From IMG/VR virus record IMGVR_UViG_3300023174_000074, positions 1 through 64,000 of that record: a stretch of DNA of 64,000 nt. One strand, 5' to 3'. Positions within the stretch are counted from its first letter, which is position 1. Every line of letters starts with the position of its first letter. The notes below the pieces were generated by a model. That model was not told the DNA's origin, did not search any database, and was given only the letters and a program-made list of their open reading frames with translations. A program made the position numbers and the translations under genes. The DNA comes from a virus. Positions 3,262 to 53,224 of the stretch are shown here, piece after piece.

Positions 3262-3687
3262 ATGAAGTACCTGCTAGAATATGAAAAATACAGCCCTGAC
3301 GAGGAATACAAATCCGATTCTAGAAGATCCCTTAATCTGGATCTTGTTAGGAAAACCGTTGATTATAAAAGACTAATAGATCTTGGATTCAAAGAGGATA
3401 CCTCGCATCAGCAAGAAATCAATAACACACTAAAATTTGTTAGATCAACAAATAATAAAAATGAGAAGGGCCACGATAAGGTATTCTACACTGTTCATCC
3501 AACGGGAAAGGTTAGAAGATACAACCCACTGAAAAACGAGGATAATCCGGGTGAAAGAATGGAGGGTAATGGCAACGACATAAAGGATTTCGGCAAGCCT
3601 TTTAGTAGACCATCAGAGTACGGAAAGGGTTTAAGATATCTTTGGCAGTATATTAAACGCAAACAAGAAAGAGGTAATTATAGATAA
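3262..3687 (+). CDS. Hypothetical protein with capsid-targeting-like N-terminus
   Basis: This 141-residue protein starts MKYLLEYEKYSPDEEY, close to the start of the protein at 17029 (MKHLLEYESYENQINE). Such leaders resemble T4 capsid-targeting propeptides, here with possible [I/L]-x-E cleavage after LLE. The rest is basic and hydrophilic with 'VFYTVHPTGKVRRYNP' in the middle; the gene at 3922 begins with the related MFHPTGKLPNG. An AATATATA element sits directly upstream (3250-3257). No known domain is recognised. Confidence 0.6.
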   Translation: MKYLLEYEKYSPDEEYKSDSRRSLNLDLVRKTVDYKRLIDLGFKEDTSHQQEINNTLKFVRSTNNKNEKGHDKVFYTVHPTGKVRRYNPLKNEDNPGERMEGNGNDIKDFGKPFSRPSEYGKGLRYLWQYIKRKQERGNYR

Positions 3688-3917
3688 TGTGTAATTGTAC
3701 ATCAAGCGGATTTGAATTTGAACCCATTAAAAGGGATATGTCAAAGGAGGAAAGTAAAATTCTAAATAAGTGGATATTAGACAATATGAACCGAAGGCTT
3801 CTGATACAGAATCCTATATACGATATATACAACGATATAATTGGATACATCACTAAGAATCCGGACGGCAATATCGTTCGTATTTTTAAAACCAATATAA
3901 AACAAATTTTAGATTAA
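3687..3917 (+). CDS. Small hypothetical protein
   Basis: The 76-residue product (MCNCTSSGFEFEPIKRDMS...) starts at an ATG that shares a base with the preceding TAA, so it is probably translationally coupled. The second half reads GYITKNPDGNIVRIFKTN, a beta-hairpin-like stretch. No recognised family. Confidence 0.55.
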   Translation: MCNCTSSGFEFEPIKRDMSKEESKILNKWILDNMNRRLLIQNPIYDIYNDIIGYITKNPDGNIVRIFKTNIKQILD

Positions 3918-3921
3918 TAAT

Positions 3922-4383
3922 ATGTTTCACCCAACAGGAAAATTACCAAACGGAAAAACCTTAATCTGTATGATGGATGAGGAAGAAGAATTAGATAGCA
4001 TCATAGATGAATGTGGATCTTCAAAACAATATGTTAAAGCCGTTACCGAATGGCTAAACGAAAATGATTACTGCGTAGAATGCTGGCAGTTAAAAGAATA
4101 CCTTAAAGCTAAAGGTATGGAGGAAGGAAAAATGAATGAGGATATGGTTGCAGCAGCAGCGCCAGCACCAGGATTAGCTACTTTAGGTAATGTGTCAGGA
4201 ATGGGTAATCCATCACCTCCTAGCTCTGCAGGTGCTACTAATAGCGGATTTTATAATCCTGCTAATAACGGATCAGGGGATAAATTCACTAGTCTTACAG
4301 CAGGAACAGGAGCAGCTAGGAATAAGAAAGCAAAGACCGTTGATAACTATTTAGAATTCGTAAAGAAAAGAAAGAAGAAATAA
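3922..4383 (+). CDS. Hypothetical protein, Ala/Gly/Pro-rich middle and basic tail
   Basis: It has 153 residues. The N-terminal 70 are acidic (DEEEELDSIIDECGS...), the middle is low-complexity (AAAAPAPGLATLGNVSGMGN) and the C-terminus is a short amphipathic segment with a Lys/Arg tail (VDNYLEFVKKRKKK). Proteins with this flexible middle often occur among T4-like head or scaffold components, but I do not recognise it. It ends just before a strong terminator. Confidence 0.55.
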   Translation: MFHPTGKLPNGKTLICMMDEEEELDSIIDECGSSKQYVKAVTEWLNENDYCVECWQLKEYLKAKGMEEGKMNEDMVAAAAPAPGLATLGNVSGMGNPSPPSSAGATNSGFYNPANNGSGDKFTSLTAGTGAARNKKAKTVDNYLEFVKKRKKK

Positions 4384-4404
4384 TATTTCCATTAATATGA
4401 CAAG

Positions 4405-4429
4405 CCCGGTCGAAAGATCGGGTTTTTTT
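4405..4429 (+). terminator. Rho-independent terminator
   Basis: CCCGGTC-GAAA-GATCGGG forms a 7-bp stem with one G-U pair and a GAAA loop, followed by seven T. It closes the 2843-4383 gene group. Confidence 0.85.
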
Positions 4430-4430
4430 C

Positions 4431-4438
4431 GATATATA
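4431..4438 (+). promoter_or_regulatory. GATATATA element upstream of the ferritin-like gene
   Basis: GATATATA lies 23 bases before the ATG at 4462 and directly after a terminator. The same octamer precedes many genes here, including most with capsid-targeting-like leaders. It resembles the T4 late promoter core (TATAAATA) in length and AT content. A late-promoter role is inferred. Confidence 0.5.
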
Positions 4439-4461: not shown

Positions 4462-5034
4462 ATGAAAACATTTAAACATTTTAAAGGAGGTACTAACGAA
4501 GGTCTAGAGTTAGAAGGAGTAGAAATAACATCTACTCCTATGGTTTGCACACCGAAATCTCTTCCTGCTGATATCGTTGCAGTATTTGAAAAAAGATTAG
4601 CCGACGAATACACAGCACACTATACATATAGAAACGCAGCTAACTGGTGCAAGAACGCAAACTATAAAAAAGCAGCAGTTTATTTCGAAGGCGAAGCAGC
4701 CGAAGAATTAGAACATGCTAAAGGTTTACAGGATTACTTAACACAATGGAACATCCTTCCCCAGATTCCTGCAGTGATTGTACCTAACGAATTCGATTCT
4801 TTGGTTGGTATTATTGACGAGGCATATGATATCGAGTATAAATTACTTCAAAGCTATTCTGCTATGCAGCATGCTCTTTGTGACGTTCACCCAGCAACAT
4901 TTAACTTCATCCAAAAATATGTTGATATTCAGAATGAGTCAGTTGGAGTATATTCAGATTTATTAAATGCACTTATGCTGATCAACATCGATAACAAATT
5001 GGATCTTTTATTCTTCGAAGAAAGATACTTCTAA
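4462..5034 (+). CDS. Ferritin-like protein with N-terminal leader
   Basis: Residues 35-170 form a ferritin-type four-helix bundle with putative di-iron ligands: RLADEYTAHYTYRNAANW (45-62) supplies the helix A Glu, and FEGEAAEELEHAKG (75-88) holds the Glu-x-x-Glu and Glu-x-x-His pattern of helix B. Ferritins oxidise and store iron or protect DNA from oxidative damage. The ferritin core is preceded by a 30-residue extension that starts MKTFKHFKGGTNE, like the short leaders on several unrelated proteins in this window. The gene stands alone between two terminators behind a GATATATA element. Confidence 0.75.
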   Translation: MKTFKHFKGGTNEGLELEGVEITSTPMVCTPKSLPADIVAVFEKRLADEYTAHYTYRNAANWCKNANYKKAAVYFEGEAAEELEHAKGLQDYLTQWNILPQIPAVIVPNEFDSLVGIIDEAYDIEYKLLQSYSAMQHALCDVHPATFNFIQKYVDIQNESVGVYSDLLNALMLINIDNKLDLLFFEERYF

Positions 5035-7708: not shown

Positions 7709-8014
7709 TTAATTTCTCTTTTTAGATGCTTTATCTTTAAATGAGTCTTTTATGTATCCTGTTATCTGAGCCCCTGATTTTTTACCTTCATTTAAAAATT
7801 TATTGAATTTCTCTGATTTACCCTCTTCGTCTAGAAAATCGTGAAAATATGCTGCCTCGAACATGGCGTCAAAAACTTCTGGAAGCTGCTGATTTTGTGT
7901 TTTGTAATTTCTTGAATTAACTCTAATTTCCGAATTTTGTCCTGGAACGTCTATGCTACCGGGTGAATCTAGCCATTCATTAATAAACATGTGGATATTT
8001 TTTAAATTTTTCAT
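7709..8014 (-). CDS. Hypothetical protein with capsid-targeting-like leader
   Basis: The 101-residue product starts MKNLKNIHMFINEWLDSPGS. The first 13 residues fit the leader pattern shared by several proteins here and contain Ile-Asn-Glu, a match to the T4 gp21 protease consensus [I/L]-x-E. The remainder is hydrophilic with a Lys-rich end. A reverse-strand GATATATA (8020-8027) lies only five bases before the ATG, so the mRNA may be leaderless. It probably shares a transcript with the M28 gene downstream. Confidence 0.6.
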   Translation of the reverse strand: MKNLKNIHMFINEWLDSPGSIDVPGQNSEIRVNSRNYKTQNQQLPEVFDAMFEAAYFHDFLDEEGKSEKFNKFLNEGKKSGAQITGYIKDSFKDKASKKRN

Positions 8015-8019: not shown

Positions 8020-8027
8020 TATATATC
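8020..8027 (-). promoter_or_regulatory. GATATATA element, reverse strand
   Basis: On the minus strand the sequence reads GATATATAAAAAGATG into the start codon at 8014. It is the only promoter-like sequence seen for the reverse-strand pair and belongs to the recurrent GATATATA class. Confidence 0.5.
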
Positions 8028-8094: not shown

Positions 8095-9492
8095 ATGATC
8101 GTAGACATTGAGAATAAAGGGGAATATCTTAAAGTATCACACTTCACGGAGGAAGGCGATTTATCTTTTTTAGATGTCCCTATTCCGGAATCAGAAAGAT
8201 TTGTTTGGGAAAAATGCAGTCCTAGCAATTCCTCTAAGGATAAAGAATGGAAAACCTGGACGGGTGACTCTGTAAAGAAACTAAAAACTAAAAAATACGA
8301 CAAATACAGGATGGCTCAGATTTTAATTGAGGCAGATCCTGAACTAACAGCTCCACTTTGGATATATCAAAATCCTAAGAAATATTTTGTCGATATTGAG
8401 GTTGAGATAACCGAGGATATGGCAGCAGCACTAGACACGGAGAATGCTAAAAATAGAGTCATTTCGATAGGTATTGCAACGGATAAATGTAAATTAATAG
8501 TTTTAGGTCTAGATCCACTGACTCCTGAACAGCAAGCTAGTATCTATAAGAAAACCAATGAATATTTCAAAAAGTTTGGCGACGAATGGTCTTTTAAATA
8601 TAAACAGTTTGAGACCGAATATGATATGTTGTACACATTCTTTAAAGAGCTTGGTCCTAAAATGCCAGTTATGACAGGATGGAACTGGCTAGGTTATGAC
8701 TGGCCCTATCTTATTAATAGAGCGAAGAAACTTGGGATTGATCCAAAAATTATTTCACCTGGCGGGTATCTTATAGGGAAACAACAGCTACCCGCTCATC
8801 TACTAATGTTTGACTACTTAGAAATCTACAAGAAGTGGGACAGAGTTATCAAGATTAAAGAAAGTAATAGATTGGATTACGTAGCAGACAAAGCAATAGG
8901 ACTTAAAAAAATTGAATATAATGGGACACTTCGAGACCTCTATCAATCAAACTTCGAAGACTTTATTTACTATAACGTAGTTGACTGCGCTTTAGTACAT
9001 TACATCGATCAGAAATTAAAGACAATGCAGACTTTCTTTAAAATAGCTATGATTAGCGGGGTGGAGATAAATAGATGCCTTTCTCCGGTTTGGTCAACAG
9101 AAGTATTAATGCTTAGGAAATTCTTAGATCGCAAACAGTTATTTGTCGTGGAAAACAGGGAGGAAGTACACGTAAAATTTGCGGGTGGATATGTTAAAGA
9201 ACCCATAACGGGACTACATGAATGGGTGGCATGCTATGACTTTGCGTCGCTATATCCAAATACAATGGTTCAGTGGAACATCTCACCAGAGGCATATAGA
9301 GGTAAAAATCCGGTAAATCCCAAAGATGATTGGATTAGGACAGCATCCGGAGCATGCTTTGCCTCCGACGAAGAAGATCCGATACTTAAAATAATTATTA
9401 AGGATTTGTACGCTAAACGTCGTAAAACGAAGGATAAAATGCTAGAGCTAGAATATGAAATCGATCAGCTGAAAAAAAAGATAGGTAAATAG
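8095..9492 (+). CDS. gp43: DNA polymerase family B (T4 gp43-like), N-terminal subunit
   Basis: The 465 residues cover the N-terminal and 3'-5' exonuclease domains and the first palm motif. Exo I is YFVDIEVEI (about 97-105), Exo II is TGWNWLGYDWPYL (about 193-205), Exo III is YNVVDCALVHYI (about 295-306) and polymerase motif A is YDFASLYPNTM (about 381-391). The protein stops in the fingers after a charged helix (LEYEIDQLKKKIGK). Motifs B and C are absent here and found at 28965-31809. A two-chain polymerase is implied, joined through the fingers helices. Split gp43 genes are known in some Aeromonas T4-like phages. Confidence 0.85.
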   Translation: MIVDIENKGEYLKVSHFTEEGDLSFLDVPIPESERFVWEKCSPSNSSKDKEWKTWTGDSVKKLKTKKYDKYRMAQILIEADPELTAPLWIYQNPKKYFVDIEVEITEDMAAALDTENAKNRVISIGIATDKCKLIVLGLDPLTPEQQASIYKKTNEYFKKFGDEWSFKYKQFETEYDMLYTFFKELGPKMPVMTGWNWLGYDWPYLINRAKKLGIDPKIISPGGYLIGKQQLPAHLLMFDYLEIYKKWDRVIKIKESNRLDYVADKAIGLKKIEYNGTLRDLYQSNFEDFIYYNVVDCALVHYIDQKLKTMQTFFKIAMISGVEINRCLSPVWSTEVLMLRKFLDRKQLFVVENREEVHVKFAGGYVKEPITGLHEWVACYDFASLYPNTMVQWNISPEAYRGKNPVNPKDDWIRTASGACFASDEEDPILKIIIKDLYAKRRKTKDKMLELEYEIDQLKKKIGK

Positions 9493-12409: not shown

Positions 12410-12423
12410 AGTTTTATGTTCTG

Positions 12424-14420: not shown

Positions 14421-15047
14421 ATGGAAAGAATAAAAAATTTTCAGGATTTTGCTTTAAACGAAAGAGAACTTCCTGATAATCAAGGTAAAATACTGGTTAT
14501 TTTGGGATCACCTGGATCTGGTAAAGGTACATTATCGAAGGAATTGAAAAAAAAATATGATTTTATCCACTTATCAACTGGAGATCTTATAAGAAATTCA
14601 GAAGACGAGGATATTAAAAAAATCATAGATGCTGGTAATTTTTTACCTGACAATATGATGATAAAAATGCTCAGAAAAGAGTTAAGAAAAGTTGATCCTA
14701 GTTCTAATGTTATCCTGGATGGATTTCCTAGAACAATAAAGCAAGCTAAAAGATTAGATTCTCTTTTAGGTAGAATGGGATTAGGTTTAAATCATGCGAT
14801 TTATTTAGACCTCCCCGATAAGGTTGCTAAAGAGAGAATAAAAAGCAGAGCCAAAGAGGAGAACAGAAAGGATGATGCTAGTGAAGAAATTGTAGAGAAA
14901 AGGTTTAAAGAATACCACGAGAAAACATTTCCTCTTTTAGACTTCTATCAAAAAAGTCGTAAGCTTATAAAAATAGAGGCTAACGAGGGTAAGGATAAAG
15001 TTTTAAAACAAGTCAGAGAAAGACTTGGCTTAAAATCCAAAAAGTAA
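14421..15047 (+). CDS. adk: Adenylate kinase with N-terminal capsid-targeting-like leader
   Basis: Residues 24-208 form an adenylate kinase: P-loop GSPGSGKGT (29-37), NMP-binding LSTGDLIR, DGFPRT, and the LID/core region RKDDASEEIVEKRFKEYH. The LID is short and lacks zinc cysteines. It interconverts 2 ADP with ATP and AMP. The kinase core is preceded by MERIKNFQDFALNERELPD, whose first 14 residues match the leader of other proteins here and contain Leu-Asn-Glu, which fits the T4 prohead protease consensus. A nucleotide kinase would not need this extension, so packaging into the head is a reasonable inference. It closely follows nrdA. Confidence 0.85.
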   Translation: MERIKNFQDFALNERELPDNQGKILVILGSPGSGKGTLSKELKKKYDFIHLSTGDLIRNSEDEDIKKIIDAGNFLPDNMMIKMLRKELRKVDPSSNVILDGFPRTIKQAKRLDSLLGRMGLGLNHAIYLDLPDKVAKERIKSRAKEENRKDDASEEIVEKRFKEYHEKTFPLLDFYQKSRKLIKIEANEGKDKVLKQVRERLGLKSKK

Positions 15048-17001: not shown

Positions 17002-17009
17002 GATATATA
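17002..17009 (+). promoter_or_regulatory. GATATATA element
   Basis: GATATATA lies 19 bases before the ATG at 17029, directly after the glycosyltransferase stop. It belongs to the recurrent class that precedes leader-bearing genes. Confidence 0.5.
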
Positions 17010-17028: not shown

Positions 17029-17565
17029 ATGAAGCATTTACTAGAATACGAATCGTACGAAAATCAGATAAACGAAGGCGCTATCCCTGTTTATGACGAG
17101 GTTGAATTTTTTAAAGATACCAAATCTAAGCCAGAAATGGAGATTAGATTTACCCAAATCCCTGCTGTTGTCGAGGGTCTTTTAGATAAAGTTGAAACCG
17201 GCGAATACTCTTCAGTTACTGTTACTGCAGATTTACCGTCTCAGGGTAAAAACGCTCCGGAATACGTCAGAGACATAATGACAAAGGAGAGAGAAAGAAT
17301 GGCAAAAAGACAACAAGCTATTCACGGTAGCAGAATCGAAAGAGCTGATAGACCAGAAGGTGAAGAATATAGGGATGAAATCAACGTTTTTGTTGACTCT
17401 GAATATACAGTCGAAGGTGTTGTTAAAGAGGACGGAAAAGATTATTTAATATGTATACCAGCTTCTTTTGTAAAAAAGGTTAAAAGAGAGCCAAGTTTAA
17501 AAGACTACTATACTGTTAAGATAGCACCACAGCAAATTATCGAGATTTATTTCACTAGAGCTTAA
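17029..17565 (+). CDS. Hypothetical protein with capsid-targeting-like leader
   Basis: It has 178 residues and starts MKHLLEYESYENQINEGAIP. It contains both Leu-Leu-Glu and Ile-Asn-Glu, the [I/L]-x-E consensus of T4 gp21 cleavage. The body is charged (TKERERMAKRQQAIHGS) with a beta-rich second half. No enzyme motif is visible. A GATATATA element precedes it and a terminator follows, so it is a single-gene unit. An internal head protein is possible. Confidence 0.6.
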   Translation: MKHLLEYESYENQINEGAIPVYDEVEFFKDTKSKPEMEIRFTQIPAVVEGLLDKVETGEYSSVTVTADLPSQGKNAPEYVRDIMTKERERMAKRQQAIHGSRIERADRPEGEEYRDEINVFVDSEYTVEGVVKEDGKDYLICIPASFVKKVKREPSLKDYYTVKIAPQQIIEIYFTRA

Positions 17566-32032: not shown

Positions 32033-32258
32033 TTCGTATCGTAGATTCATTTTAGAGGAGACCGAATTAGTACTTAGGGAAAGAAAAAGATATATTCAGA
32101 CAAACTCTATAGGCTCTGTAACCAAGCTATTTAATCTTGATCAAATGATCGATTTCTTTTATCTGGAGGAAGAATATGAAATTGTTCAGGAATTAAGCGA
32201 ATTAAAGAAGGCAATAATGGTTAAACACTTTTTAAGAGACCCGATAAGTGATATATAG
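32007..32258 (+). CDS. Small hypothetical protein
   Basis: The 83-residue helical protein begins MENILENYDSYRRFILEETE. The 'YDSYRRFILEE' start vaguely recalls the leader found on other proteins but lacks the Asn-Glu end. It overlaps the previous gene. Function unknown. Confidence 0.5.
   Translation: MENILENYDSYRRFILEETELVLRERKRYIQTNSIGSVTKLFNLDQMIDFFYLEEEYEIVQELSELKKAIMVKHFLRDPISDI
32250..32257 (+). promoter_or_regulatory. GATATATA element
   Basis: GATATATA lies 23 bases before the ATG at 32281, the same distance as at the ferritin-like gene (4431) and the acidic protein (52780). Confidence 0.5.
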
Positions 32259-32280: not shown

Positions 32281-33741
32281 ATGGAATTAAATCGAATAAT
32301 GGACTTTTCGGAGTTTATAAACGAAGCTAGCTCAGTTAAGCCCCATGTTGTGATGCTAATAGGGGGTGGAACAAACGAATTCTCGAGATCTTTTGAAAAA
32401 GAGTGCAAAAGAAAAGGGATTCGTGTAAATGTCCTTGATATTGATTCTACTGAGGTTGAAATTGGCGAAAAAGGCCACATAATCAAAGAGGGTAAGCAGG
32501 TAGTTAAGATAGATCCAGCATCAACGGTAATTATAGCTAGATCTGGTGTTTTAAAATCGACCCACAACAAGGAGGTTCTTACAAAATTAGAAAATGCTAA
32601 ATATTTCGTTGTAAATAGGTTAAAACCTATGGAGGTGTGCGAGAACAAATTCATTACCTGCGACATACTAGAAGCTGCTGGTATACCTGTACCAAAATAC
32701 GCATTGGTAACCTCAGAAGATACCATGGAAGATGCGGTTAAAAAGATAGGTGGCAAATTCCCAGTGGTTATGAAGCTTCTTACCGGATCTAAAGGCATAG
32801 GTGTATCCATAGTGGATTCATTCAATTCCCTAAAATCGGTTTTCCAAACAATAAGAAAACTTGATGAAACCAGCGAGATTATGATACAGGAAAAGATCGA
32901 AGCTAAATACGATTTAAGAATACACGTTCTAATAAAAGATGTAGGTATAAAAGATCCAACCGATGCTGACAATTTTAAAATCATTGGAGCAATGAGAAGA
33001 AATGCGGTAGGAAAAGACTTTAGAACTAATTATTCTCTTGGTGGGACGGTTCAAAAGGTAAAGCTAACCAAAGAAATAGAAGAAGTCGCAATTAAATCAG
33101 CAAGTGTAACAGGGTGTAACTGGAGTGGGGTTGATATAATGATAGACGAAAAAGACGGAACACCATACGTTTTAGAAGTAAATTCTTCGCCAGGAACAGA
33201 GGGTATATCAAAAGCTTTAGGTACCCCTATTGTTAATGATGTTATCGAATTTGTTATGGATAGAGAGAATTGGGTATTACCTAAAACGCAAATAGGATAT
33301 TTGGAAGTGGTGGATATAGAAGGTCTTGGTGAAGTGGTAGGAAAATTTGATACAGGTAACGGAACTTTGTGCTGCTGCCTACATGGTGATAAAATAGAGC
33401 AAAAGGGTAAAATGCTTCATTTTGAAATAGGTCCTAAGAAATTCAACAAAAAAATAATAGGATACACTGATATTTCAGGTGGTATACATACTAAAGGCAC
33501 TAAAAAATACCCAACTATAGAGATGAATTTTAAATTTATGGGAATGGATATTACTGCTGAGGTAGCTGTATTAGACAGAGGACATAAAAGCACACCATTT
33601 TTGGTAAATAGAAAAACTATGTTGCCTATGAATATAATTATAAACCCCGATAATAAATTTATAGTTACTAAAAAACCAGAAGGATATAATCAATATAAGG
33701 CAAAAGGTAAACCCCATTCAGGCATAGAATTTAAAAAATAA
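32281..33741 (+). CDS. RimK-like ATP-grasp ligase fused to RimB-like retropepsin domain, with leader
   Basis: A 486-residue three-part protein. Residues 1-15 (MELNRIMDFSEFINE) are a capsid-targeting-like leader ending in Ile-Asn-Glu. Residues 20-325 are an ATP-grasp ligase of RimK type: FPVVMKLLTGSKGIGV and VLEVNSSPGTEGI carry the ATP and metal residues. Residues 335-486 resemble the RimB/ATP-dependent zinc protease domain (retropepsin fold): KFDTGNGTLCCCL matches its 'DTGAxTSAL' active site and VLDRGHKSTPFLVNRKTM the second conserved block. RimK adds glutamates to protein C-termini and RimB trims them, so one chain may both add and remove a tag. Confidence 0.75.
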   Translation: MELNRIMDFSEFINEASSVKPHVVMLIGGGTNEFSRSFEKECKRKGIRVNVLDIDSTEVEIGEKGHIIKEGKQVVKIDPASTVIIARSGVLKSTHNKEVLTKLENAKYFVVNRLKPMEVCENKFITCDILEAAGIPVPKYALVTSEDTMEDAVKKIGGKFPVVMKLLTGSKGIGVSIVDSFNSLKSVFQTIRKLDETSEIMIQEKIEAKYDLRIHVLIKDVGIKDPTDADNFKIIGAMRRNAVGKDFRTNYSLGGTVQKVKLTKEIEEVAIKSASVTGCNWSGVDIMIDEKDGTPYVLEVNSSPGTEGISKALGTPIVNDVIEFVMDRENWVLPKTQIGYLEVVDIEGLGEVVGKFDTGNGTLCCCLHGDKIEQKGKMLHFEIGPKKFNKKIIGYTDISGGIHTKGTKKYPTIEMNFKFMGMDITAEVAVLDRGHKSTPFLVNRKTMLPMNIIINPDNKFIVTKKPEGYNQYKAKGKPHSGIEFKK

Positions 33742-33752: not shown

Positions 33753-33935
33753 ATGAGCAGTCAACAAGAAAAAACGGAAAAGATACAGGTACTTCTATCT
33801 GAGGAGGATTTAACAGATCTTAGTAGAAAAATCGCAAAAAGAGCATTGGCTAAAGGCGATGCACCGGTATCCATATCTCACTATGTTAGAAAACTAATCA
33901 GAAGAGATTTAGGTAAAACTACTGATGAGGACTAA
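33753..33935 (+). CDS. Small ribbon-helix-helix-like protein
   Basis: A 60-residue basic protein: IQVLLSEEDLTDLSRKIAKR then SISHYVRKLIRRDLG. This is the strand-helix-helix pattern of small DNA-binding ribbon-helix-helix proteins, so a regulator is possible. Its stop overlaps that of the convergent gene at 33932. Confidence 0.55.
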   Translation: MSSQQEKTEKIQVLLSEEDLTDLSRKIAKRALAKGDAPVSISHYVRKLIRRDLGKTTDED

Positions 33936-34213
33936 TCCTTATTAAAGAAGTCTTTAAAAGATAATACCCTGTTTGGTTCGCCTTGCTGGGTATTTTTTTG
34001 TTCCGACCCTTCTTCCTCAGCTTCCCCGCCTTTAGTCTCTGGTTCGATGTCTTCCACTGTTTCCTGTCCAGCCTCTATTTCTGAGTTAGCATCTTCTTCA
34101 TGCTCTATCTCAAGCTGATCCCAAGATCCTTGACCTTCTTCCCTTCCTATTTCGGGATTTAATTGCGAGGCATCCGTAGATATCTCGTCTCCTTGTAATT
34201 GTTCGTCTTCCAT
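33932..34213 (-). CDS. Acidic low-complexity protein with C-terminal FxxFFN motif
   Basis: The reverse-strand 93-residue product is very acidic (WDQLEIEHEEDANSEIEAGQ) and probably disordered. Its last residues, NRVLSFKDFFNKD, resemble the 'h-x-x-F-x-x-F-h-N' leader found at the N-terminus of other proteins here, but placed at the C-terminus. Acidic small head-core proteins exist in T4 (gp67), so a prohead core role is conceivable but unproven. Confidence 0.5.
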   Translation of the reverse strand: MEDEQLQGDEISTDASQLNPEIGREEGQGSWDQLEIEHEEDANSEIEAGQETVEDIEPETKGGEAEEEGSEQKNTQQGEPNRVLSFKDFFNKD

Positions 34214-34230: not shown

Positions 34231-34238
34231 GATATATA
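34231..34238 (+). promoter_or_regulatory. GATATATA element
   Basis: GATATATA lies four bases before the ATG at 34243, in the divergent gap between the reverse-strand acidic gene and the leader-bearing gene. The short distance suggests a leaderless or near-leaderless message if it is a promoter. Confidence 0.45.
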
Positions 34239-34242: not shown

Positions 34243-34560
34243 ATGAAAAAAATACTGGAATTCTCCGACTACTTGGACGATTTGGATCTTAATCCAGAGG
34301 AACAAGCTGAAATTAGAAATTGGCTAAAGAAATATGAGAAGTATTTCAATTTCCATGATAGCGGGAATTTTATGGATTCTGTTGATCAGATTACCAATGA
34401 TGCACTTAATCAGCTAGGTATAGATAAATCTAAGAAAGATGAGGTTCAAAGTTATATAGAAAGCATATATGACTTGTCTGATGGAATTTCAGTCATAATG
34501 GCACCGAATCCGGAGATTAATTATAATGGTATTGATCAGGTTCAAAGATTTCAGTACTAG
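34243..34560 (+). CDS. Hypothetical protein with capsid-targeting-like start
   Basis: The 105-residue acidic helical protein begins MKKILEFSDYLDDLDLNPEE. The first 11 residues match the leader pattern, and Ile-Leu-Glu would fit an [I/L]-x-E cleavage. No enzyme motif is visible. It lies behind a GATATATA element and before a terminator, a single-gene unit like 4462 and 17029. Confidence 0.55.
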   Translation: MKKILEFSDYLDDLDLNPEEQAEIRNWLKKYEKYFNFHDSGNFMDSVDQITNDALNQLGIDKSKKDEVQSYIESIYDLSDGISVIMAPNPEINYNGIDQVQRFQY

Positions 34561-35629: not shown

Positions 35630-35733
35630 ATGCGGTACTCTCAATATATAAAGATCACCCTTCACTATCACCAGAAGAGGTCAGAAAATATCAGGCGTTG
35701 GCCACAGTTAGCAGAATAAAAGGTTATTTATAA
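35630..35733 (+). pseudogene. Remnant of a leucine-rich-repeat gene copy
   Basis: ATG 35630 opens MRYSQYIK, like the MRYLKTYR start of the next gene. From about 35662, in another frame, LSPEEVRKYQALATVSRIKG is nearly identical to the C-terminus of the gene at 35733 (PPEEVRKYQALATVNRMKG). A former sister copy has lost its repeat-containing middle, joining its start to its end out of frame. Confidence 0.75.
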
Positions 35734-36533
35734 TGAGATATTTAAAAACATATCGGGTATTTGAATCTGCACCAACCCTTACTGAAGACCAGTTTGGATG
35801 GCTTAATAGGTGCACACAAGGAAGCTGGAAACTGAATCACACAACTGGACTACTTGATGTGGATGGTTATTTTGGTTGTGACCAACAAGATCTAACGGAT
35901 TTTAAAGGTGTTGCATTTGGTCATGTTAAAGGAAATTTCTATTGTTATAACAATCAGCTTACTAGCCTGGTGGGAGCACCTCAGACCGTTGGTGGGGGTT
36001 TCTATTGTAACAATAATCAGCTCACCAGTCTTGATGGAGCACCTCAGACCGTCAGTAGTTTCTCTTGTGAGAACAATCGCCTCACCAGTCTGAAGGGTGC
36101 ACCTCAGAGCGTTGACGGTGATTTCTATTGTTATAACAATCTCCTCACCAGCCTGGAGGGAGCACCTCGGACCGTTGGCAGGGGTTTCTCTTGTCACGAC
36201 AATCAGCTCACCAGTCTGGAGGGAGCACCTCAGACCGTTGATGGGAGTTTCTTTTGTTACCACAATCTCCTCACCAGTCTGGAGGGAGCACCTCAGACCG
36301 TTGTCTGGAATTTCTCTTGTAACGGTAATCCGGTATCTAAAGAAACATTAGCATCTATTTTTGCACTAATGAAGAAAGGAAAGAGTTATCAGCAAGCTTT
36401 AGAAGAGCACTGGCCTAAGATGGGAAATGATGATAGAGCTCTAATGTATAAGCAAATGCCTAATCTGCCACCAGAAGAGGTCAGGAAGTACCAGGCGTTG
36501 GCCACAGTTAACAGAATGAAAGGTTATTTATAA
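35733..36533 (+). CDS. Leucine-rich-repeat-like protein
   Basis: A 266-residue protein beginning MRYLKTYRVFESAPT, a leader-like start. Residues 60-205 hold about seven 20-residue repeats of the form 'F-x-C-x-x-N-x-L-T-S-L-x-G-A-P-Q-T-V', as in YCYNNQLTSLVGAPQTV. Such phage-type repeats form a solenoid and usually mediate protein contacts. The C-terminus is helical (ALMYKQMPNLPPEEVRKYQ). Repeat DNA is nearly identical between units, so repeat number can change by recombination. Remnant copies flank both sides. Confidence 0.7.
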   Translation: MRYLKTYRVFESAPTLTEDQFGWLNRCTQGSWKLNHTTGLLDVDGYFGCDQQDLTDFKGVAFGHVKGNFYCYNNQLTSLVGAPQTVGGGFYCNNNQLTSLDGAPQTVSSFSCENNRLTSLKGAPQSVDGDFYCYNNLLTSLEGAPRTVGRGFSCHDNQLTSLEGAPQTVDGSFFCYHNLLTSLEGAPQTVVWNFSCNGNPVSKETLASIFALMKKGKSYQQALEEHWPKMGNDDRALMYKQMPNLPPEEVRKYQALATVNRMKGYL

Positions 36534-46058: not shown

Positions 46059-46059
46059 T

Positions 46060-46344: not shown

Positions 46345-46354
46345 AGAAGCATTT

Positions 46355-46840
46355 ATGGTATATACAACTAAAAAAATAATGCAGAATTATATTTTAAATG
46401 CGGAGATAATGTCCAATAGAAAATTCACGTCTAGAGAGATGTTGGACATTAAATCAGTAATGGAATTAAGGGAAGATTTCATTATCTTGTATAGCATCTT
46501 TATTGATTGTATGGAATCTAACTTTAATGGATGCTTAGAAATCTATGTTGAGGATCTCGAATTAGACACAGATCTACAAAACGATCTGGAAAAAGTAGTT
46601 AAAGATCTGGATTCAATTATACCAGGTGGTTTATCAAACGATTCAAAAATAGAGTGGACGACAGGAACCCCTGCCATAAACACGGTTTGGTATAAAGATA
46701 ATGGTAATTGGTTCGAAAGAATTTCTGAATCGGAAAGAGAATTCTTTAGTGATTCGAATTTCGAAGACGATGACTATGATAATCCATTTAGAGGTTATAA
46801 TGATCTTTCAAATGGACAAGAAGGAGATGATTTCTGGTAA
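46355..46840 (+). CDS. Hypothetical acidic protein
   Basis: A 161-residue protein with a helical N-terminal half (REMLDIKSVMELREDFIIL) and a strongly acidic, Asn/Gly-rich C-terminus (NFEDDDYDNPFRGYNDLS). No recognised domain. Confidence 0.55.
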   Translation: MVYTTKKIMQNYILNAEIMSNRKFTSREMLDIKSVMELREDFIILYSIFIDCMESNFNGCLEIYVEDLELDTDLQNDLEKVVKDLDSIIPGGLSNDSKIEWTTGTPAINTVWYKDNGNWFERISESEREFFSDSNFEDDDYDNPFRGYNDLSNGQEGDDFW

Positions 46841-46864
46841 TAAACAAGTGATTATATATAAAAC

Positions 46865-46887
46865 GTATTGAAGGGTGCCTTTCGTAC
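46865..46887. repeat. Left arm of inverted repeat flanking the zinc-ribbon gene
   Basis: GTATTGAAGGGTGCCTTTCG (46865-46884, then TAC) is the inverted counterpart of 47780-47802, with one bulge on each side. The arms enclose 46965-47774. Confidence 0.7.
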
Positions 46888-46964
46888 TTAGTGTCCCGGG
46901 TCAAAATGACCTTAGAGTTGTTAGCAATAGCAGCGATGGGATTTTAAAAAAAAGAAAAAGGTAA

Positions 46965-47774
46965 ATGAAAAACAACACAATCGGAGTACAGAGTACTCCA
47001 AAACCACAAGCTTGGGTAGCCGTATCCAACAACAGACAAAAAATCTACGGCGCAAAGGATGATCTAGTTTATCTAGACAGCGGACAGGAGTTTCAAATCG
47101 AGCTCTATAATCCAACACCAACATCCTATTTAGCTAAAATCTATCTCAATGACAAGGTTATCAGTAACTCGGGTTTAGTACTTAGACCTGGACAAAGATA
47201 CTTCTTGGATCGTTTCATCGATGAGAAGAAGAAATTCTTATTTTCGACTTACGATGTTGATGCTACAGATGAGGTTAAAGAGGCAATTAAAAACAACGGT
47301 AAGGTAAAGGTTGAGTTCTACCCAGAACAAACAAATTACAGTTTCACGCTTTCGACTGGCACAACCTATGTTCCTTACCATCAAACTTGGATAAACAATC
47401 CAGGAACAGTAAATCCAACTATTTTCGGGGGAACTACTGCACCTAATGTTTACTTTACACAAACTTCATCAATCGGGGGTAATCCAATTATCTACTCTTC
47501 TAACAGCTTATCTGGGGTAGTTAACTGCTCAACTGCGGGTTCATTTGAAACTGGTAGAGTAGAAAAAGGTGAAAAATCCGATCAGGACTTTGGAAAAGAT
47601 TCGGGTAGTTACTCCTGGTATTGTTGTTACACATCAGAGTATCAAATTCTTCCGAGATCAGTTAAACCAGTAGAGGTTACTGAGATTAGAGATTATTGTA
47701 CAGTATGTGGAACAAGATCAAAGAAAAAAACATGGAAATTCTGCCCTAACTGTGGCGAATCTCTAGATCAATAA
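46965..47774 (+). CDS. Zinc-ribbon protein of unknown function, possibly virion-associated
   Basis: The 269-residue protein starts MKNNTIGVQSTPKPQAWVAV. The N-terminal 120 residues are beta-rich (YLDSGQEFQIELYNPTPTSY; GLVLRPGQRYFLDRF), and the middle is Gly/Asn/Thr-rich with FTLSTGTTYVPYHQTW. The C-terminus is a four-Cys zinc ribbon: YCTVCGTRSKKKTWKFCPNC. I do not recognise a named family, but the beta-rich, Gly-rich body suggests a structural role. The gene lies alone between the arms of a 23-bp inverted repeat. Confidence 0.6.
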   Translation: MKNNTIGVQSTPKPQAWVAVSNNRQKIYGAKDDLVYLDSGQEFQIELYNPTPTSYLAKIYLNDKVISNSGLVLRPGQRYFLDRFIDEKKKFLFSTYDVDATDEVKEAIKNNGKVKVEFYPEQTNYSFTLSTGTTYVPYHQTWINNPGTVNPTIFGGTTAPNVYFTQTSSIGGNPIIYSSNSLSGVVNCSTAGSFETGRVEKGEKSDQDFGKDSGSYSWYCCYTSEYQILPRSVKPVEVTEIRDYCTVCGTRSKKKTWKFCPNCGESLDQ

Positions 47775-47779
47775 ATTTC

Positions 47780-47802
47780 GTACAAAGGCACCCATTCAAT
47801 AC
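47780..47802. repeat. Right arm of inverted repeat flanking the zinc-ribbon gene
   Basis: GTACAAAGGCACCCATTCAA (47780-47799, then TAC) is the near-perfect reverse complement of 46865-46887. Arms about 890 bp apart could fold the whole transcript or mark the ends of a transferred unit. Confidence 0.7.
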
Positions 47803-47856
47803 TTTTTACACGAAATTTTATTTGGCTTTTACAGTAGAACCTATAAATACAAAACA

Positions 47857-49791
47857 TTGAGAGTTTTTTACATTGTACCACATCTGTCTACCGGTGGGAT
47901 GCCTGAGTATCTAAAGAATAAAATAGACAAAATTAAAGACGAAGCGGAAGTTTGGGTGTTTGAACAAAAACACGAAGTTTCTTATATTACCATTAGGAAA
48001 AGAATAGAATCCATAATAGGCCGAGAAAGAATAGTAACCTGGGGAGACAAGCCAGAGGACATCTTGATTAGGGCTATCAAAGAAATGAAGCCTGATATTA
48101 TCCACTTTGAAGAACCCTGTGAGCAATTCTTAAGTCACCATTTGCTGGATATTATATTCTCTGATGATAGAGAATATAAGATATTCGAAACAATGCATGA
48201 CTCGTCAGTTTCATCTAGAGAAAAAATATACCTACCTGATAAATTCATAGTTATTAGTCCTTGGCAGGTTAGTCTTCTAAAAGATCTTAATGTACCGATA
48301 GAGGTTGTCGAGCATGCGATATCCAAGAAACCTGGAAGGGATTACCATGAAAGCAGGGCGAAATTAGGCCTAGATCCCAATAAAAAACACATAATCCAAA
48401 TTGGTATATTTACTCCAAGAAAGAACCAGAGAGAAACTGCTGAACTCGCTAAATTACTACCAGAGATAGAATTCCATTTCATCGGAACCTTAGCCGATAA
48501 CTTTAAATGGTATTGGGAACCGGTTACAAGTAATCTTCCTGCTAATTGTAAAATATGGGGAGAAAGAGATGACGTTGATTTATTCTATCAGGCAGCAGAT
48601 CTTGTTATATTTCCTTCGATACCTTTATTCAATGATAAAGAAACAAGTCCACTCGTTATAAAGGAAGCTATATCTTGGAAATCACCATTGCTTCTAAGGA
48701 ATCTTTCAGTATACGTTGACATGTATCAGGAATCAAACACTCTGAAATTCTTCAGAAGTGAAGATAAGAGTGAAATATTAAACCAGATAAGAGAAATATT
48801 AGAAATCAAAAAAGAATTAAAGATAAGCAATAAGAGCGATATGTTTGTGCATAGATTCTCCCCTGAAAATAATAGAATTGATATAGTTTACATTGGGGAT
48901 AGCAGAAACATAAACGAGATTGAATGTGACGTTTATGTTAAAGACATAGACAGTGGATCTAATATATTCCATTGTGGAATAAGATTTAATCTGGGTGGAT
49001 CGTACTGGATAATTCCCATTCCGATTCACATCTACGATTTCCAAAATAATCCAAACTTTGGAGGATTTCTCATTGAATATAGACAGGAAAACGATGTAAT
49101 CTCTGAATCTGTAATTAGATTCAGAAACGTAAGCAAGAAGATCTGTAGACTTGATACAAAAGATCCAATATTTAGAAACTATGAAGAATTCTTTACCGAT
49201 CGAATATATGGAACTATGACCGACTGTATATCCAGGAAAGGGGTTGCTATAGATGTTGGTGCTAATGTTGGATTGTTTACTGAATTCTGTCTAGACGCAG
49301 GATTTGCAAAAGTTTATTCAATCGAACCAAATCCACTAGCTGCAAATGAATTCAGAAAGATGCACTCCGATAATCCCAATGTTATTTTTGAAGAAATAGC
49401 TTTAACTGGTAACGGAGAGGATGTTAGTCTTAGCGTAGATCCAGGAAACACTCTGGTTTCGAGTATAGCAAAAACAATAAGCAATAATACTGTCTTAGTA
49501 AAATCAGAAACACTGAATTCTCTAATCGAAAGAGTCGGTGAGATAGATTTACTTAAAATCGATATCGAAGGTGCTGAGTATGATTTGCTAGAGGTGACAG
49601 ATATTGGATTGCTAGCTAAAGCTAATAACATAATTTTAGAATTCCATGATAATAATGACGGTAGAGTTAATAAGCTAACAGAGAAATTAATCAGTGCAGA
49701 TTTTGAGGTTAAGCTTTATAATGAATTAATACAGTATGAGGTTGATGACAGCGCAGATCATGGGGTAATATTTGCAAAAAAGAAAATATAA
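47857..49791 (+). CDS. Glycosyltransferase (GT4-type) fused to FkbM-type methyltransferase
   Basis: A 644-residue fusion with probable TTG start (MRVFYIVPHLSTGGMPEYL). Residues 1-330 are a GT-B glycosyltransferase: HIIQIGIFTPRKNQRETAEL is the donor-side strand, and LVIFPSIP with ETSPLVIKEAISWKSPLLLR holds the 'E-x7-E'-like nucleotide-sugar site. Residues about 440-640 are an FkbM methyltransferase: GVAIDVGANVGLFTEFC binds S-adenosylmethionine and IDLLKIDIEGAEYDLLEV is the second hallmark. It may add a methylated sugar. The next gene begins five bases later. Confidence 0.75.
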   Translation: MRVFYIVPHLSTGGMPEYLKNKIDKIKDEAEVWVFEQKHEVSYITIRKRIESIIGRERIVTWGDKPEDILIRAIKEMKPDIIHFEEPCEQFLSHHLLDIIFSDDREYKIFETMHDSSVSSREKIYLPDKFIVISPWQVSLLKDLNVPIEVVEHAISKKPGRDYHESRAKLGLDPNKKHIIQIGIFTPRKNQRETAELAKLLPEIEFHFIGTLADNFKWYWEPVTSNLPANCKIWGERDDVDLFYQAADLVIFPSIPLFNDKETSPLVIKEAISWKSPLLLRNLSVYVDMYQESNTLKFFRSEDKSEILNQIREILEIKKELKISNKSDMFVHRFSPENNRIDIVYIGDSRNINEIECDVYVKDIDSGSNIFHCGIRFNLGGSYWIIPIPIHIYDFQNNPNFGGFLIEYRQENDVISESVIRFRNVSKKICRLDTKDPIFRNYEEFFTDRIYGTMTDCISRKGVAIDVGANVGLFTEFCLDAGFAKVYSIEPNPLAANEFRKMHSDNPNVIFEEIALTGNGEDVSLSVDPGNTLVSSIAKTISNNTVLVKSETLNSLIERVGEIDLLKIDIEGAEYDLLEVTDIGLLAKANNIILEFHDNNDGRVNKLTEKLISADFEVKLYNELIQYEVDDSADHGVIFAKKKI

Positions 49792-49795
49792 AAAA

Positions 49796-52153
49796 ATGAG
49801 AATAGCACAAATAACCCCCGGAATAATACAGATTCCACCAAATGGATGGGGAGCAGTAGAAAAGATAATCTGGGAATATACAAAGGTATTAAGAAGACTC
49901 GGACATGGGGTCGAAATCATTTATACTGATGATGTTAAACCAGGAGAGTGGGATATCGTTCACGTACATGTGGCCAACCTAGCTTTATTACTAAAGGAGA
50001 GAGGAATACCTTATGTGTTTTCACATCACGATCATCATGCTTATTATCTAGGGAAAGACTCTGAAGTTTATAGACAAAATCTAGAAGCTATAAAAGGATC
50101 AGTTCTATCTTTTGTACATGCTAAATATCTTATAGATTATTTTGGATCATTACCACAATTAAGATATCTTAGCCATGGGGCTAATCTTAAGGATTATTAT
50201 TTTGAAGACAGGTCTATCGATCTTCTTGATAATGGACCAAGCCTAATTATGATGGCAAACAATGGTTTACTTGTAGATCCTTTATTTGATAGAAAGGGAT
50301 TCATACCAGGAATAGAATGCGCTAGCATATTAGATCTTCCGATTACTATAATCTGTCCTAGTAAAAATAACAAAGAGTTCTTTGAGAAGAATGCAGGCGT
50401 TGCTTCGTACCGTAAGCTAAATGTGATCTACGACATGAATTATGAAGATTCACTAGCAGAGATGAGAAAGCACCATGTCTTTTTGAATCCTGGAGCTATT
50501 GAGGCTGGGCATCCAAATCTAACAGTTACCGAAAGTATCGCCATGGGTATTCCTGTAGTTGGACTAATGGAATCTAATTTAAGAGGGATGAAAAGAATAG
50601 AGTCTGCAGATACTAAAGATTTAGTAGATGGAGTTGAAGAAGTTCTACAAAAGTATTCTCAGTATGTTCTAGAGTGTAGGGATCAAAGAAGCTTAATATC
50701 ATGGGAGGTTGTCGTTTCGAGAATGCTTATGGATTACGCATCATTTGGTAAGATATCTCAGAAGGATCTCATACTCAACGATTATAGGGGCATACCGAAA
50801 AGAATAGAAAAGAAGGAGGATCACGGATTCTACTCTTGGTTTAAAAGAGATCCGCATTTTTATAAATGCTCATATCCAGAAGGTGAAGGCCAAGCTATAT
50901 TTTTCAGAGATGCTAGAACTGGATCAATTAAATCTTTTCTTAATGTAGGTAAAAGTAAAAGAGCATGGTCAACCGTTCCCGATGATCGAGCTAAGTACAT
51001 TGATTGGGAAATAGTTATAAAAGACGGATCTGATGTTCTTAAAACTATTAAGATGGATTTAAGCAATCAGCATGTTCTGATCGAGGATGGAAACATAAGA
51101 AGAAATGACATCAAGGACATTATCAAGGACTTTGTGTCTTTGACTAAGTGCATTCCTTCGATATCTGAAAAGTCTAAATACTTAGAGGATATTCATATCC
51201 CGCATTTTAAATATAGCGGTGATGATGAATCTGGTTTTTATAGGGTTTTAAATACAGATCAGATCATATCTTTCTTTAGTCCCAATTATGTTAAGGATAA
51301 TAATCCGCTTATAATTTTAAAAACTTCGGCACTGGGAGACACTATATCTTTCATGCCTTATGCAGACGAATATGCTAGAAGACTAGGAATTAAATGTGAC
51401 GTGGTCAGTAACTTTGGATTTCTCTATGAAGATTTATATCAGAATGTGAACACAATACAGATGCCGACTGATTTAAGCACGTATACTGACATTATATGCT
51501 GTGACTATATCTATGACTTGCCTTTACAATTAGGCTTTGCTAAACAGCTAGGATTAGCCGATATGGGCAAGATCAGACCTCGGTTAAAGAAGTCTGGTAA
51601 GTCATCTCCTCTGAATAAGAAATATGTTTGCTTTTCCAGCCATAGTACTGCACAGGCTAAGCACTGGAACAATAACAATTCTTGGGAAAAGCTATGTGAT
51701 ATGCTACAGAAGAAAGGTCTTGTCCCTGTTTGCATAGATCGATATTACAGCTTTGGTAGCGAGGGTAATTGGAACGAGATTCCTAAGAACTGTATGAATA
51801 AGACCGGCATGGATCTTACTGAAATGATGCACTGGATCGAACACTGCGAATTCTTTGTTGGCCTTTCTAGTGGGCTTTCTTGGGTAGCACATGCACTAGA
51901 CAAAAAGGTGGTTGTGATATCGGGAGTAACCACAAAGGACAATGAATTTGATGATGATTGCATTAGAATCCATAGAGATGACGTTTGTAATTCCTGCTTT
52001 AATACACCCGAAAGATTCCCATTTGACCCGGGTGATTGGTTTTGGTGTCCAGTACACAAAGGAACAGCCAGACAATTTGAGTGCACCAAGAGAATCTCTG
52101 CAAAACAGGTTATGGATGCGATAGATTCTAGGGGCTGGTCAAAAATAAAGTAG
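49796..52153 (+). CDS. Two-domain glycosyltransferase: GT4-like N-terminus, heptosyltransferase-like C-terminus
   Basis: A 785-residue protein from MRIAQITPGIIQIPPNGWGA. Residues 1-310 are GT-B type: YVFSHHDHHAYYLG and a donor region VFLNPGAIEAGHPNLTVTES. Residues 430-785 resemble GT9-like (autotransporter) heptosyltransferases: LKTSALGDTISFMPYADEYA, FSSHSTAQAKHWNNN and FVGLSSGLSWVAHALDKK. They end with a Cys-rich block (CNSCFNTPERF, FWCPVHKG, FECTKRIS) typical of that family. Two active sites in one chain suggest sequential sugar additions, perhaps to Ser/Thr-rich fibre proteins. Confidence 0.75.
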   Translation: MRIAQITPGIIQIPPNGWGAVEKIIWEYTKVLRRLGHGVEIIYTDDVKPGEWDIVHVHVANLALLLKERGIPYVFSHHDHHAYYLGKDSEVYRQNLEAIKGSVLSFVHAKYLIDYFGSLPQLRYLSHGANLKDYYFEDRSIDLLDNGPSLIMMANNGLLVDPLFDRKGFIPGIECASILDLPITIICPSKNNKEFFEKNAGVASYRKLNVIYDMNYEDSLAEMRKHHVFLNPGAIEAGHPNLTVTESIAMGIPVVGLMESNLRGMKRIESADTKDLVDGVEEVLQKYSQYVLECRDQRSLISWEVVVSRMLMDYASFGKISQKDLILNDYRGIPKRIEKKEDHGFYSWFKRDPHFYKCSYPEGEGQAIFFRDARTGSIKSFLNVGKSKRAWSTVPDDRAKYIDWEIVIKDGSDVLKTIKMDLSNQHVLIEDGNIRRNDIKDIIKDFVSLTKCIPSISEKSKYLEDIHIPHFKYSGDDESGFYRVLNTDQIISFFSPNYVKDNNPLIILKTSALGDTISFMPYADEYARRLGIKCDVVSNFGFLYEDLYQNVNTIQMPTDLSTYTDIICCDYIYDLPLQLGFAKQLGLADMGKIRPRLKKSGKSSPLNKKYVCFSSHSTAQAKHWNNNNSWEKLCDMLQKKGLVPVCIDRYYSFGSEGNWNEIPKNCMNKTGMDLTEMMHWIEHCEFFVGLSSGLSWVAHALDKKVVVISGVTTKDNEFDDDCIRIHRDDVCNSCFNTPERFPFDPGDWFWCPVHKGTARQFECTKRISAKQVMDAIDSRGWSKIK

Positions 52154-52189
52154 GCTCACCGAGGATAAATAGTAGTAAAAAAAACGTTA

Positions 52190-52771
52190 ATGAAAAAATT
52201 AATATTACTATTATTACCGACCTTAGTATTTGGTCAGAAACTTAGAGAGTCGGTTAAGGTAAAAACACCGATATATGAAGTAATATATAATGAAAAATTA
52301 GAGCAGCCAACTTGGATCAAGTACACGGTTCAATGCCCGGCAGGAACAGCTTCTAGAACAGGTATTGACTTTTACACCAATGATTCTATTAAAACTTCAG
52401 ATGCAGCTGATTACGTGAATAATGTCTATGATAAAGGCCATTTAGCTCCAGCAGCTGATTTTAATTGCACCAAAGAGCTTTTATATCAAACTTTTAGCTA
52501 CTTAAACTGCGCTTTACAGAATCAATACCTAAATAGAGGAGTATGGAGAATGCTAGAAGAACATGAAAGAGAATTGGCTAAGACTGAAAAGGTTACTGTT
52601 ACTATAACCCTTGTTTTTGATAAAAAATCGATCTTATTGCCATCAGGAGCCACTGTACCTAGTGGATTTTATAAAACAATCCACTTAAAAAAGTCTAAAA
52701 AGACGATAAAGTATTATTTTCCTAATGAGGCCCCGGTTAAGTCTAAATACACCGAATACATAATTAAATAA
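52190..52771 (+). CDS. Exported DNA/RNA non-specific endonuclease (NUC family)
   Basis: A Sec signal peptide is clear (MKKLILLLLPTLVFGQ). The mature part has YDKGHLAPAADF, the catalytic 'D-R/K-G-H' motif of the NucA/EndoG (beta-beta-alpha metal) nucleases, and YLNCALQNQYLNRGVWRMLE carrying the metal-binding Asn. At 193 residues it is short for the family. Export suggests action in the periplasm or outside, for example on competing DNA. Confidence 0.8.
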   Translation: MKKLILLLLPTLVFGQKLRESVKVKTPIYEVIYNEKLEQPTWIKYTVQCPAGTASRTGIDFYTNDSIKTSDAADYVNNVYDKGHLAPAADFNCTKELLYQTFSYLNCALQNQYLNRGVWRMLEEHERELAKTEKVTVTITLVFDKKSILLPSGATVPSGFYKTIHLKKSKKTIKYYFPNEAPVKSKYTEYIIK

Positions 52772-52779
52772 ACGAAAAG

Positions 52780-52787
52780 GATATATA
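52780..52787 (+). promoter_or_regulatory. GATATATA element
   Basis: GATATATA lies 23 bases before the ATG at 52811, the same spacing as at 4431 and 32250. Confidence 0.5.
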
Positions 52788-52810
52788 CATAAACATAAAA
52801 AACACAGAAA

Positions 52811-53224
52811 ATGGAAAGAATAGTATCATTTGAAGACTTTAAGAAAAAAGCTATGGAAATAGCGGAGGACGACAACATGGAGGGAGGACAAGAAAAACAA
52901 CACTACATGTTTTTCGCAAACTTAACTTCCATCAAACATTACATAGAAGAGATTCTTAAAATGGATCCAGGAGAAGTTGATAAACACCTTAAGAATGGTC
53001 ACGATTGGGCTGCTGATCATATTGCTACTTCTAAAGACGATATTCAAGAAGTTGCTGATTGGATCAGAAACGAAATGGAAGGTGAAGGATCATCCGAAGA
53101 ATCAGGAGAAGAATCAGGAGAAGAATCAGGAGAAGAAATGATCGAACCAGAAAACATAGAAGTTGAAGTAGAAGACGAGGAAAAACCCGAAGAAGACGAA
53201 GAGGGTGAAGAAGACGAAGACTAA
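52811..53224 (+). CDS. Acidic protein with leader-like N-terminus
   Basis: The 137-residue protein starts MERIVSFEDFKKKAMEIAED, which resembles the adenylate kinase leader (MERIKNFQDFALNE). A helical middle follows, and the last 50 residues are a Glu/Asp/Ser repeat (EESGEESGEESGEE then an acidic tail). An internal head or scaffold-like protein is possible. A GATATATA element precedes and a terminator follows. Confidence 0.55.
   Translation: MERIVSFEDFKKKAMEIAEDDNMEGGQEKQHYMFFANLTSIKHYIEEILKMDPGEVDKHLKNGHDWAADHIATSKDDIQEVADWIRNEMEGEGSSEESGEESGEESGEEMIEPENIEVEVEDEEKPEEDEEGEEDED

Follow-up and report, generated by a model that had tools for sequence, protein, structure and literature searches.

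In phage T4, the internal proteins IPI, IPII and IPIII bear a capsid targeting sequence (CTS; Mullaney and Black 1996, reviewed in PMC9026906). Suppressor experiments with IPIII showed targeting to depend on residues 4 and 7, and processing on residues 8 and 10; the prohead protease gp21 cleaves after L/I-X-E (PMC9026906). T4 Alt is processed at its C-terminus too (PMC9026906), and gp21 removes a 65-residue propeptide from gp23 (PMC5694885). Phage P1 DarB likewise has a short N-terminal signal, which is sufficient to package a foreign protein, but unlike the leader described below, no consensus shared by the Dar proteins has been found, and P1 belongs to another phage lineage (PMC9024508). In phiKZ and SPN3US, a gp21-like protease (gp175/gp245) works at A/S/G-x-E, cleaving behind the Glu in many head and ejection proteins; unlike the leader here, the propeptides are mostly longer than 100 residues, contain no shared short motif and follow another cleavage rule (PMC5694885). 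Several neighboring head-module proteins of Sphingomonas phage PAU share the N-terminus MKT[LI]xxLYEA, some with LNEA, which resembles the leader here but has another consensus and few members, encoded mostly beside the protease gene. PTm1 and Lak-B5 have an S77 domain fused to the scaffold and a gp23-type capsid protein, as in the phages analyzed here, but without YxxYhxE repeats or an enriched leader. A literature search found no report of the leader or the scaffold repeats in the present phage group.

The DNA analyzed here (the window; 64,000 nucleotides) corresponds to bases 1-64000, about half, of a 126,808-base virus record. A comparison with 50,697 phage records gave no near match to bases 30000-50000 of the window. 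Uncultured jumbo phages are the nearest relatives that were found, and three of them (G001, G003 and G007; 319-373 kb) were read whole. As these three relatives encode a gp23-type capsid protein and an S77 prohead protease, the 126.8-kb record is a fragment of a T4-related jumbo phage; by comparison with them, the protease-scaffold and full-length capsid genes of this phage probably lie outside the fragment. Similar capsid proteins are encoded, among others, by the named phages LR756500 (uncultured, 462 kb), the Prevotella Lak phages, Flavobacterium phage MaF61 and Tenacibaculum phage PTm1.

An earlier note on the window described nine proteins with related N-termini and read them as capsid-targeting leaders. 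All nine ORFs and N-termini are present as described:

3262..3306 (+): leader MKYLLEYEKYSPDEE of ORF 3262-3687, unknown function; profile score 11.1
4462..4500 (+): leader MKTFKHFKGGTNE of the ferritin-like protein 4462-5034; aromatics at 4 and 7 as in T4
7976..8014 (-): leader MKNLKNIHMFINE of ORF 7709-8014(-); weak profile score, 4.0
14421..14462 (+): leader MERIKNFQDFALNE of the adenylate kinase 14421-15047
17029..17076 (+): leader MKHLLEYESYENQINE of ORF 17029-17565; leader in 4/4 genomes
32281..32325 (+): leader MELNRIMDFSEFINE of the RimK-like ATP-grasp protein 32281-33741; leader in 4/4 genomes
34243..34281 (+): leader MKKILEFSDYLDD of ORF 34243-34560; leader in 4/4 genomes
35733..35768 (+): leader MRYLKTYRVFES of the LRR-like repeat protein 35733-36533
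52811..52849 (+): leader MERIVSFEDFKKK of the acidic ORF 52811-53224; leader in 4/4 genomes

These leaders are probably T4-type capsid targeting sequences that have been greatly expanded and possibly mimic scaffold repeats; from their sequences, we infer packaging, cleavage and docking of the proteins that carry them. The earlier reading is supported by several features taken up below: the match to T4 residues 4/7 and 8/10, the enrichment of h-x-E, the LNE/S sequence of the capsid protein (the slash marking the putative cut), an S77 protease with His and Ser in the relatives, and a shared late-type promoter. What is observed is that the leader is real, is selected at the protein level, is transferable, has the anatomy of the T4 sequence and stands on late-type genes, in phages with a matching protease and scaffold.

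The common pattern that had been claimed for all nine, aromatic-x-x-aromatic, holds for eight of them (YEKY, FKHF, FQDF, YESY, FSEF, FSDY, YRVF and FEDF); the N-terminus at 8014(-) has only IHMF. Orthologues of this last protein read NFSNF in G001 and NFKDC in G003, and the G001 orthologue, MKNVKNFSNFISIEVNEW, is a clear leader. Ile/Leu-Asn-Glu is found, as claimed, in four leaders (8014(-), 14421, 17029 and 32281); the leader at 4462 has TNE, and those at 3262, 34243, 35733 and 52811 have no NE. The leader of ORF 3262-3687 is present also in the orthologues of G003, G007 and G001 (7.9 bits). The ferritin-like protein 4462-5034 has no homologue in the three relatives. The LRR-like family of 35733-36533 comprises 21 proteins across the four genomes, 18 with the leader, 11 of them in G001. 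These LTSLEGAPQTV-repeat proteins form an expanded family, with 11 tandem copies in G001 at 38668-48374 and further copies at window 35733-36533 and record 103670-105216, nearly all with the leader.

Placed on the T4 grid, the leaders put [FY]xx[FY] and then [ILV]-N-E at the corresponding positions, and the leader at 4462 (MKTFKHF) shares the T4 numbering. The T4 sequence that the earlier note had cited, MKTYQEFIAEA, occurs on two proteins in the T4 record, with MKTFKEFIKED on a third. Common to both systems are a 10-19-residue N-terminal peptide, aromatics at the targeting positions, hydrophobic-x-Glu at the processing positions and carriers that are otherwise unrelated, to which the relatives add an S77 protease and the late-type promoter a probable late expression. 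Unlike T4, which has a handful of cargos, the present phages have dozens of putative ones per genome, including metabolic enzymes, and have C-terminal versions; also unlike T4, there is an extra conserved hydrophobic residue three before the first aromatic, Asn is preferred before Glu, and the scaffold has repeats of the same pattern.

The nine leaders proved to be a sample of a larger set when the search was extended genome-wide: about 15 more are found elsewhere in the record, and C-terminal versions exist too. Genes were called in the record, G001, G003 and G007, and a leader profile trained on three genomes was scored on the fourth, held out. At the middle cut-off, it detected 9.2-13.2% of N-termini, compared with 0.8-0.9% of internal windows and 0.6-1.2% of shuffled N-termini, an enrichment of about 12-15-fold. 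With the profile from the three relatives only, 22 of 195 N-termini of this record (11.3%) scored, compared with 9 of 1056 internal windows (0.85%) and 0.8% of shuffled N-termini. Constraint is strongest at the two aromatics three apart and at the hydrophobic residue before them; the first motif position is aromatic in all families and the second in 91%, figures to which the profile contributes by itself favoring aromatics there. Altogether, 185 leader proteins in the four genomes fall into 91 families without mutual similarity once the first 25 residues are removed, and MAFFT alignment of 71 of the 91 families yields hardly more than MxxIxxFxxFxxxE as a consensus. Judged by the internal-window rate, chance would account for about 13-15 of the 185, likely including the leaders called on a sliding clamp and an SbcC-like protein; these two, and the leaders of a few membrane proteins, are probably spurious.

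Processing positions are enriched as well. The sequence hNE[SAGRKN] follows the motif in 31% of leader proteins, compared with 0.9% of others (p 4e-43) and none of the matched internal windows. Just after the motif, hxE is present in 75% vs 34% and hNE in 40% vs 3.4%, and with one protein per family, Glu stands three residues past the second aromatic in 26%, against a background of 7.5%. A clear h-x-E within 15 residues is missing in about one quarter of leader families, so that, if targeting is real, the leader would be kept on those proteins.

Consistent with the earlier statement that the leaders precede complete domains, the adenylate kinase, RimK and ferritin domains all begin after the leader. 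The Pfam ADK match of the adenylate kinase 14421-15047 (1e-39) starts at residue 27, and solved adenylate kinases in the PDB align only from residue ~20-26. In its AlphaFold model, pLDDT is 41 for residues 1-10, and strand structure begins only at residue 24; the leader is therefore predicted to be disordered, ahead of a complete domain. F7, F10 and L12-N13-E14 are invariant in eight adenylate kinases of the relatives. The ferritin-like protein 4462-5034 matches Pfam Ferritin (PF00210, 7.6e-18) from residue 43, and PDB ferritins align from residue 32-34 onward. In the RimK-like protein 32281-33741, RimK (PF08443, 7.2e-35) covers residues 121-324, and RimK enzymes align from residue 30 at the earliest. 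Besides these three domains, Pfam finds YkuD transpeptidase, pterin-4a-carbinolamine dehydratase, GDPD, CHAP, SLT, OmpA and peptidoglycan-binding domains among the leader proteins, and PHROGs adds endolysin-like matches; most have no known function.

T4 core proteins are in part building or filling material. The leader proteins might similarly build or fill the core, either staying there or being lost, rather than being delivered enzymes, and several of them are indeed encoded in the head module adjoining the capsid gene and many have no known domain. Complete enzymes with conserved sequence, such as the adenylate kinase and the RimK-like ligase, would however make poor filler, and core material is a rather unlikely explanation.

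The putative machinery for capsid targeting is best seen in the relatives. Their capsid protein has MKLINEQEIY at its start and HSLNE/SAGAY at the end of its propeptide, LNES being present there in 44 of 44 distinct versions; by analogy with T4 gp23, LNE/S would be the cut site. A Pfam search of the 126.8-kb record for S77 gave no match, and the control set was silent too, so that absence does not follow; the S77 protease turned up in six of the seven other records tested, as well as in 80 loci. In GELDHP and SISSRAAG, the relatives keep the catalytic His and Ser, which align with the two residues of T4 gp21 that are Ala in the structure 5jbl. The scaffold fused to the protease bears 12-17 tandem repeats in 67 of 67 complete versions, nearly all of the repeats spaced by 14 residues. 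The unit, e.g., YSEYLAE-NLDKNIS, reads aromatic-x-x-aromatic-hydrophobic-x-Glu, the same pattern as the leader, and any other protein of the genomes has at most three such motifs. The conserved hydrophobic residue stands three before the first aromatic in the leader and two before it in the scaffold repeat, and a profile trained on scaffold repeats alone is selective only at the strictest cut (6 of 1476 N-termini vs 3 of 9824 internal windows), finding few leaders otherwise. The likeness between leader and scaffold is therefore one of pattern, not of close sequence. An AlphaFold model of the whole protease-scaffold, with repeats as long helices, has a mean pLDDT of 46, too poor for fold search.

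Among other phages, LR756500 has about 40 leaders (MKYIKEYEEF), and its scaffold has a few degenerate repeats, only three of them matching the pattern, which counts against capsid targeting as read here. The leader is absent from MaF61 and Lak-B5 and shows no enrichment in PTm1, which counts in its favor: the Lak-B5 and PTm1 scaffolds are without repeats; in MaF61, no protein has more than two such motifs and no S77 protein was found.

A short, amphipathic-looking, unstructured leader might instead direct proteins to another virion part, the membrane or an intracellular phage compartment, and several of the cargos act on peptidoglycan or membranes. Such destinations are improbable, because the hNE signature, the LNE/S of the capsid protein and the head-scaffold repeats all point to the head, and the tail and neck genes that were checked share the promoter of leader genes without having a leader.

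The motif can also be found at C-termini, in two proteins of the window:

33935..33970 (-): C-terminal motif RVLSFKDFFNKD of ORF 33932-34213(-)
4345..4380 (+): C-terminal motif NYLEFVKKRKKK of ORF 3922-4383

In the former, the motif is kept in G003 and G007 while the remainder diverges to ~33% identity in G003, and a G001 protein ending RRVLSYSDYISSLNQ matches the motif. Orthologues of the latter end KTVDNYLEF (G007), KKLKSYLEF (G003) and KTLLSYLDF (G001). Similar C-terminal motifs are present in a family ending NLKDYRDW and in an FMN-reductase-like protein at record 122943-123770(-). Among leaderless genes, the C-terminal motif occurs in 7 of 97 behind GATATATA and in 16 of 1169 otherwise (p 0.001). 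This is modest evidence that the motif may also work at the C-terminus, which would suit a docking peptide. A third such copy, at record 100018-100272(-), was dropped because the gene is split by an HNH-type insert and the motif lies, in the relatives, inside one 192-residue protein. The split of this 192-residue family, at record 98591-100272(-), is caused by an HNH-type gene on the opposite strand.

The octamer GATATATA is the candidate late promoter. Most of the nine genes had been described as lying behind it, and six have it 12-31 nt upstream:

4431..4438 (+): GATATATA, candidate late promoter of 4462, 31 nt upstream
8020..8027 (-): GATATATA of 8014(-), 13 nt upstream
17002..17009 (+): GATATATA of 17029, 27 nt upstream
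32250..32257 (+): GATATATA of 32281, 31 nt upstream
34231..34238 (+): GATATATA of 34243, 12 nt upstream
52780..52787 (+): GATATATA of 52811, 31 nt upstream

It is absent within 120 nt of 3262 and 14421, and is 115 nt away for 35733. Within the 60 nt preceding a gene, GATATATA is present for 59%, 47%, 31% and 53% of leader genes in the four genomes, compared with 11%, 9%, 6% and 6% of others, a 5-9-fold excess (Fisher p 1e-6 to 1e-18). As a TATA-like octamer near -10, with no conserved block 15-30 nt upstream and hence no conserved -35 element, it fits a T4-like late promoter, although its sequence differs from that of T4, TATAAATA. The octamer is present also before the protease-scaffold gene, a neck gene (head-closure Hc2) and tail fibre genes, none of which has a leader; because these late genes have the octamer alone, the leader is not merely a late-gene feature. 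The spacing of GATATATA to the start codon falls into two classes, ~25-38 nt and 12-15 nt, the latter of which (window 8014(-) and 34243, and genes of G003 and G007) may give leaderless mRNAs.

The sharing of GATATATA by leader genes could suggest that the common N-terminus is a DNA- or mRNA-level signal of late genes, i.e., a translation enhancer or a promoter-coupled cassette. However, synonymous codons at motif positions are used at about the genome average and F/Y and I/L/V interchange freely, therefore selection acts on the protein; on the basis of this ordinary codon use, a DNA-level signal was tested and rejected. The late protease, neck and tail genes with promoter but without leader, and the C-terminal copies far from the promoter, likewise leave it very improbable. 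Chance or compositional bias of N-termini, conceivable in an AT-rich genome where F, Y, I, K and E are common, was rejected on the held-out N-terminal enrichment and the 91 unrelated families and has a negligible probability, as shuffled N-termini of equal composition score ~10-20 times less often and the control phages MaF61, Lak-B5 and PTm1 have no leader excess comparable to that of the four genomes.

For capsid targeting, the following scheme can be proposed. Through the two aromatics three apart, a freshly synthesized protein would dock on the prohead core, the partner probably being the protease-fused scaffold with its 12-17 repeats. In the simplest mechanism, the leader would resemble a single free scaffold repeat that enters the core and is cleaved together with it, and the phage's S77 prohead protease would cut after the following hydrophobic-x-Glu, freeing the cargo inside the head. 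Cargo genes would be late genes scattered over the genome, about half with their own GATATATA promoter, and the cargo would include adenylate kinase, the RimK-like ligase, the ferritin-like protein, peptidoglycan-active enzymes and many unknowns. Injection of the cargo, which the earlier note had raised, is a guess from the T4 precedent. More tentatively, and with some doubt, the leaders might constitute a general head address system, in which a tag copying the repeat unit of the phage's own scaffold works at either protein end and loads several dozen proteins, including metabolic enzymes, for delivery to the host. If so, capsid targeting in T4 would either preserve a remnant of this scaffold-mimic principle or have converged on it.

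If capsid targeting is correct, the few internal proteins of T4 would be extended to a genome-scale packaging code readable from sequence alone, and tagged proteins of uncultured phages, many of them of unknown function, could be predicted as virion cargo. It would also answer what the capsid targeting sequence binds, namely scaffold repeats, with many natural variants at hand, and the tags could be used as building blocks to load proteins into phage heads.

Several minor observations concern head proteins and other genes of the record. Residues 87-125 of the small ORF 3922-4383(+), preceded by MNE, resemble the capsid protein just after LNE/S (54-56% identity over ~45 residues in G001 and G003, 46% in G007), and it is possible that this protein mimics the capsid protein N-arm. 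A short gp23-like paralogue (PF07068, 3e-15) is encoded at record 108609-109993 (L003:7610-8994), next to a gp21-like protein without the catalytic His and Ser; a similar pair is found in G007, and this is possibly a dead protease with a partial capsid protein. A long SSG/TSG collagen-like repeat protein at window 1441-2520 is probably a fibre. Genes for DNA polymerase, ribonucleotide reductase and two topoisomerase-like proteins look split by intein or homing-endonuclease insertions (window 8095-9492 with 28965-31809, 11342-14406, 17690-21551 and 24470-27219). A TnpB-like protein (window 42287-43588) and an IS200-like transposase (record 125935-126348(-)), both recognized by eye, suggest insertion elements in the phage.
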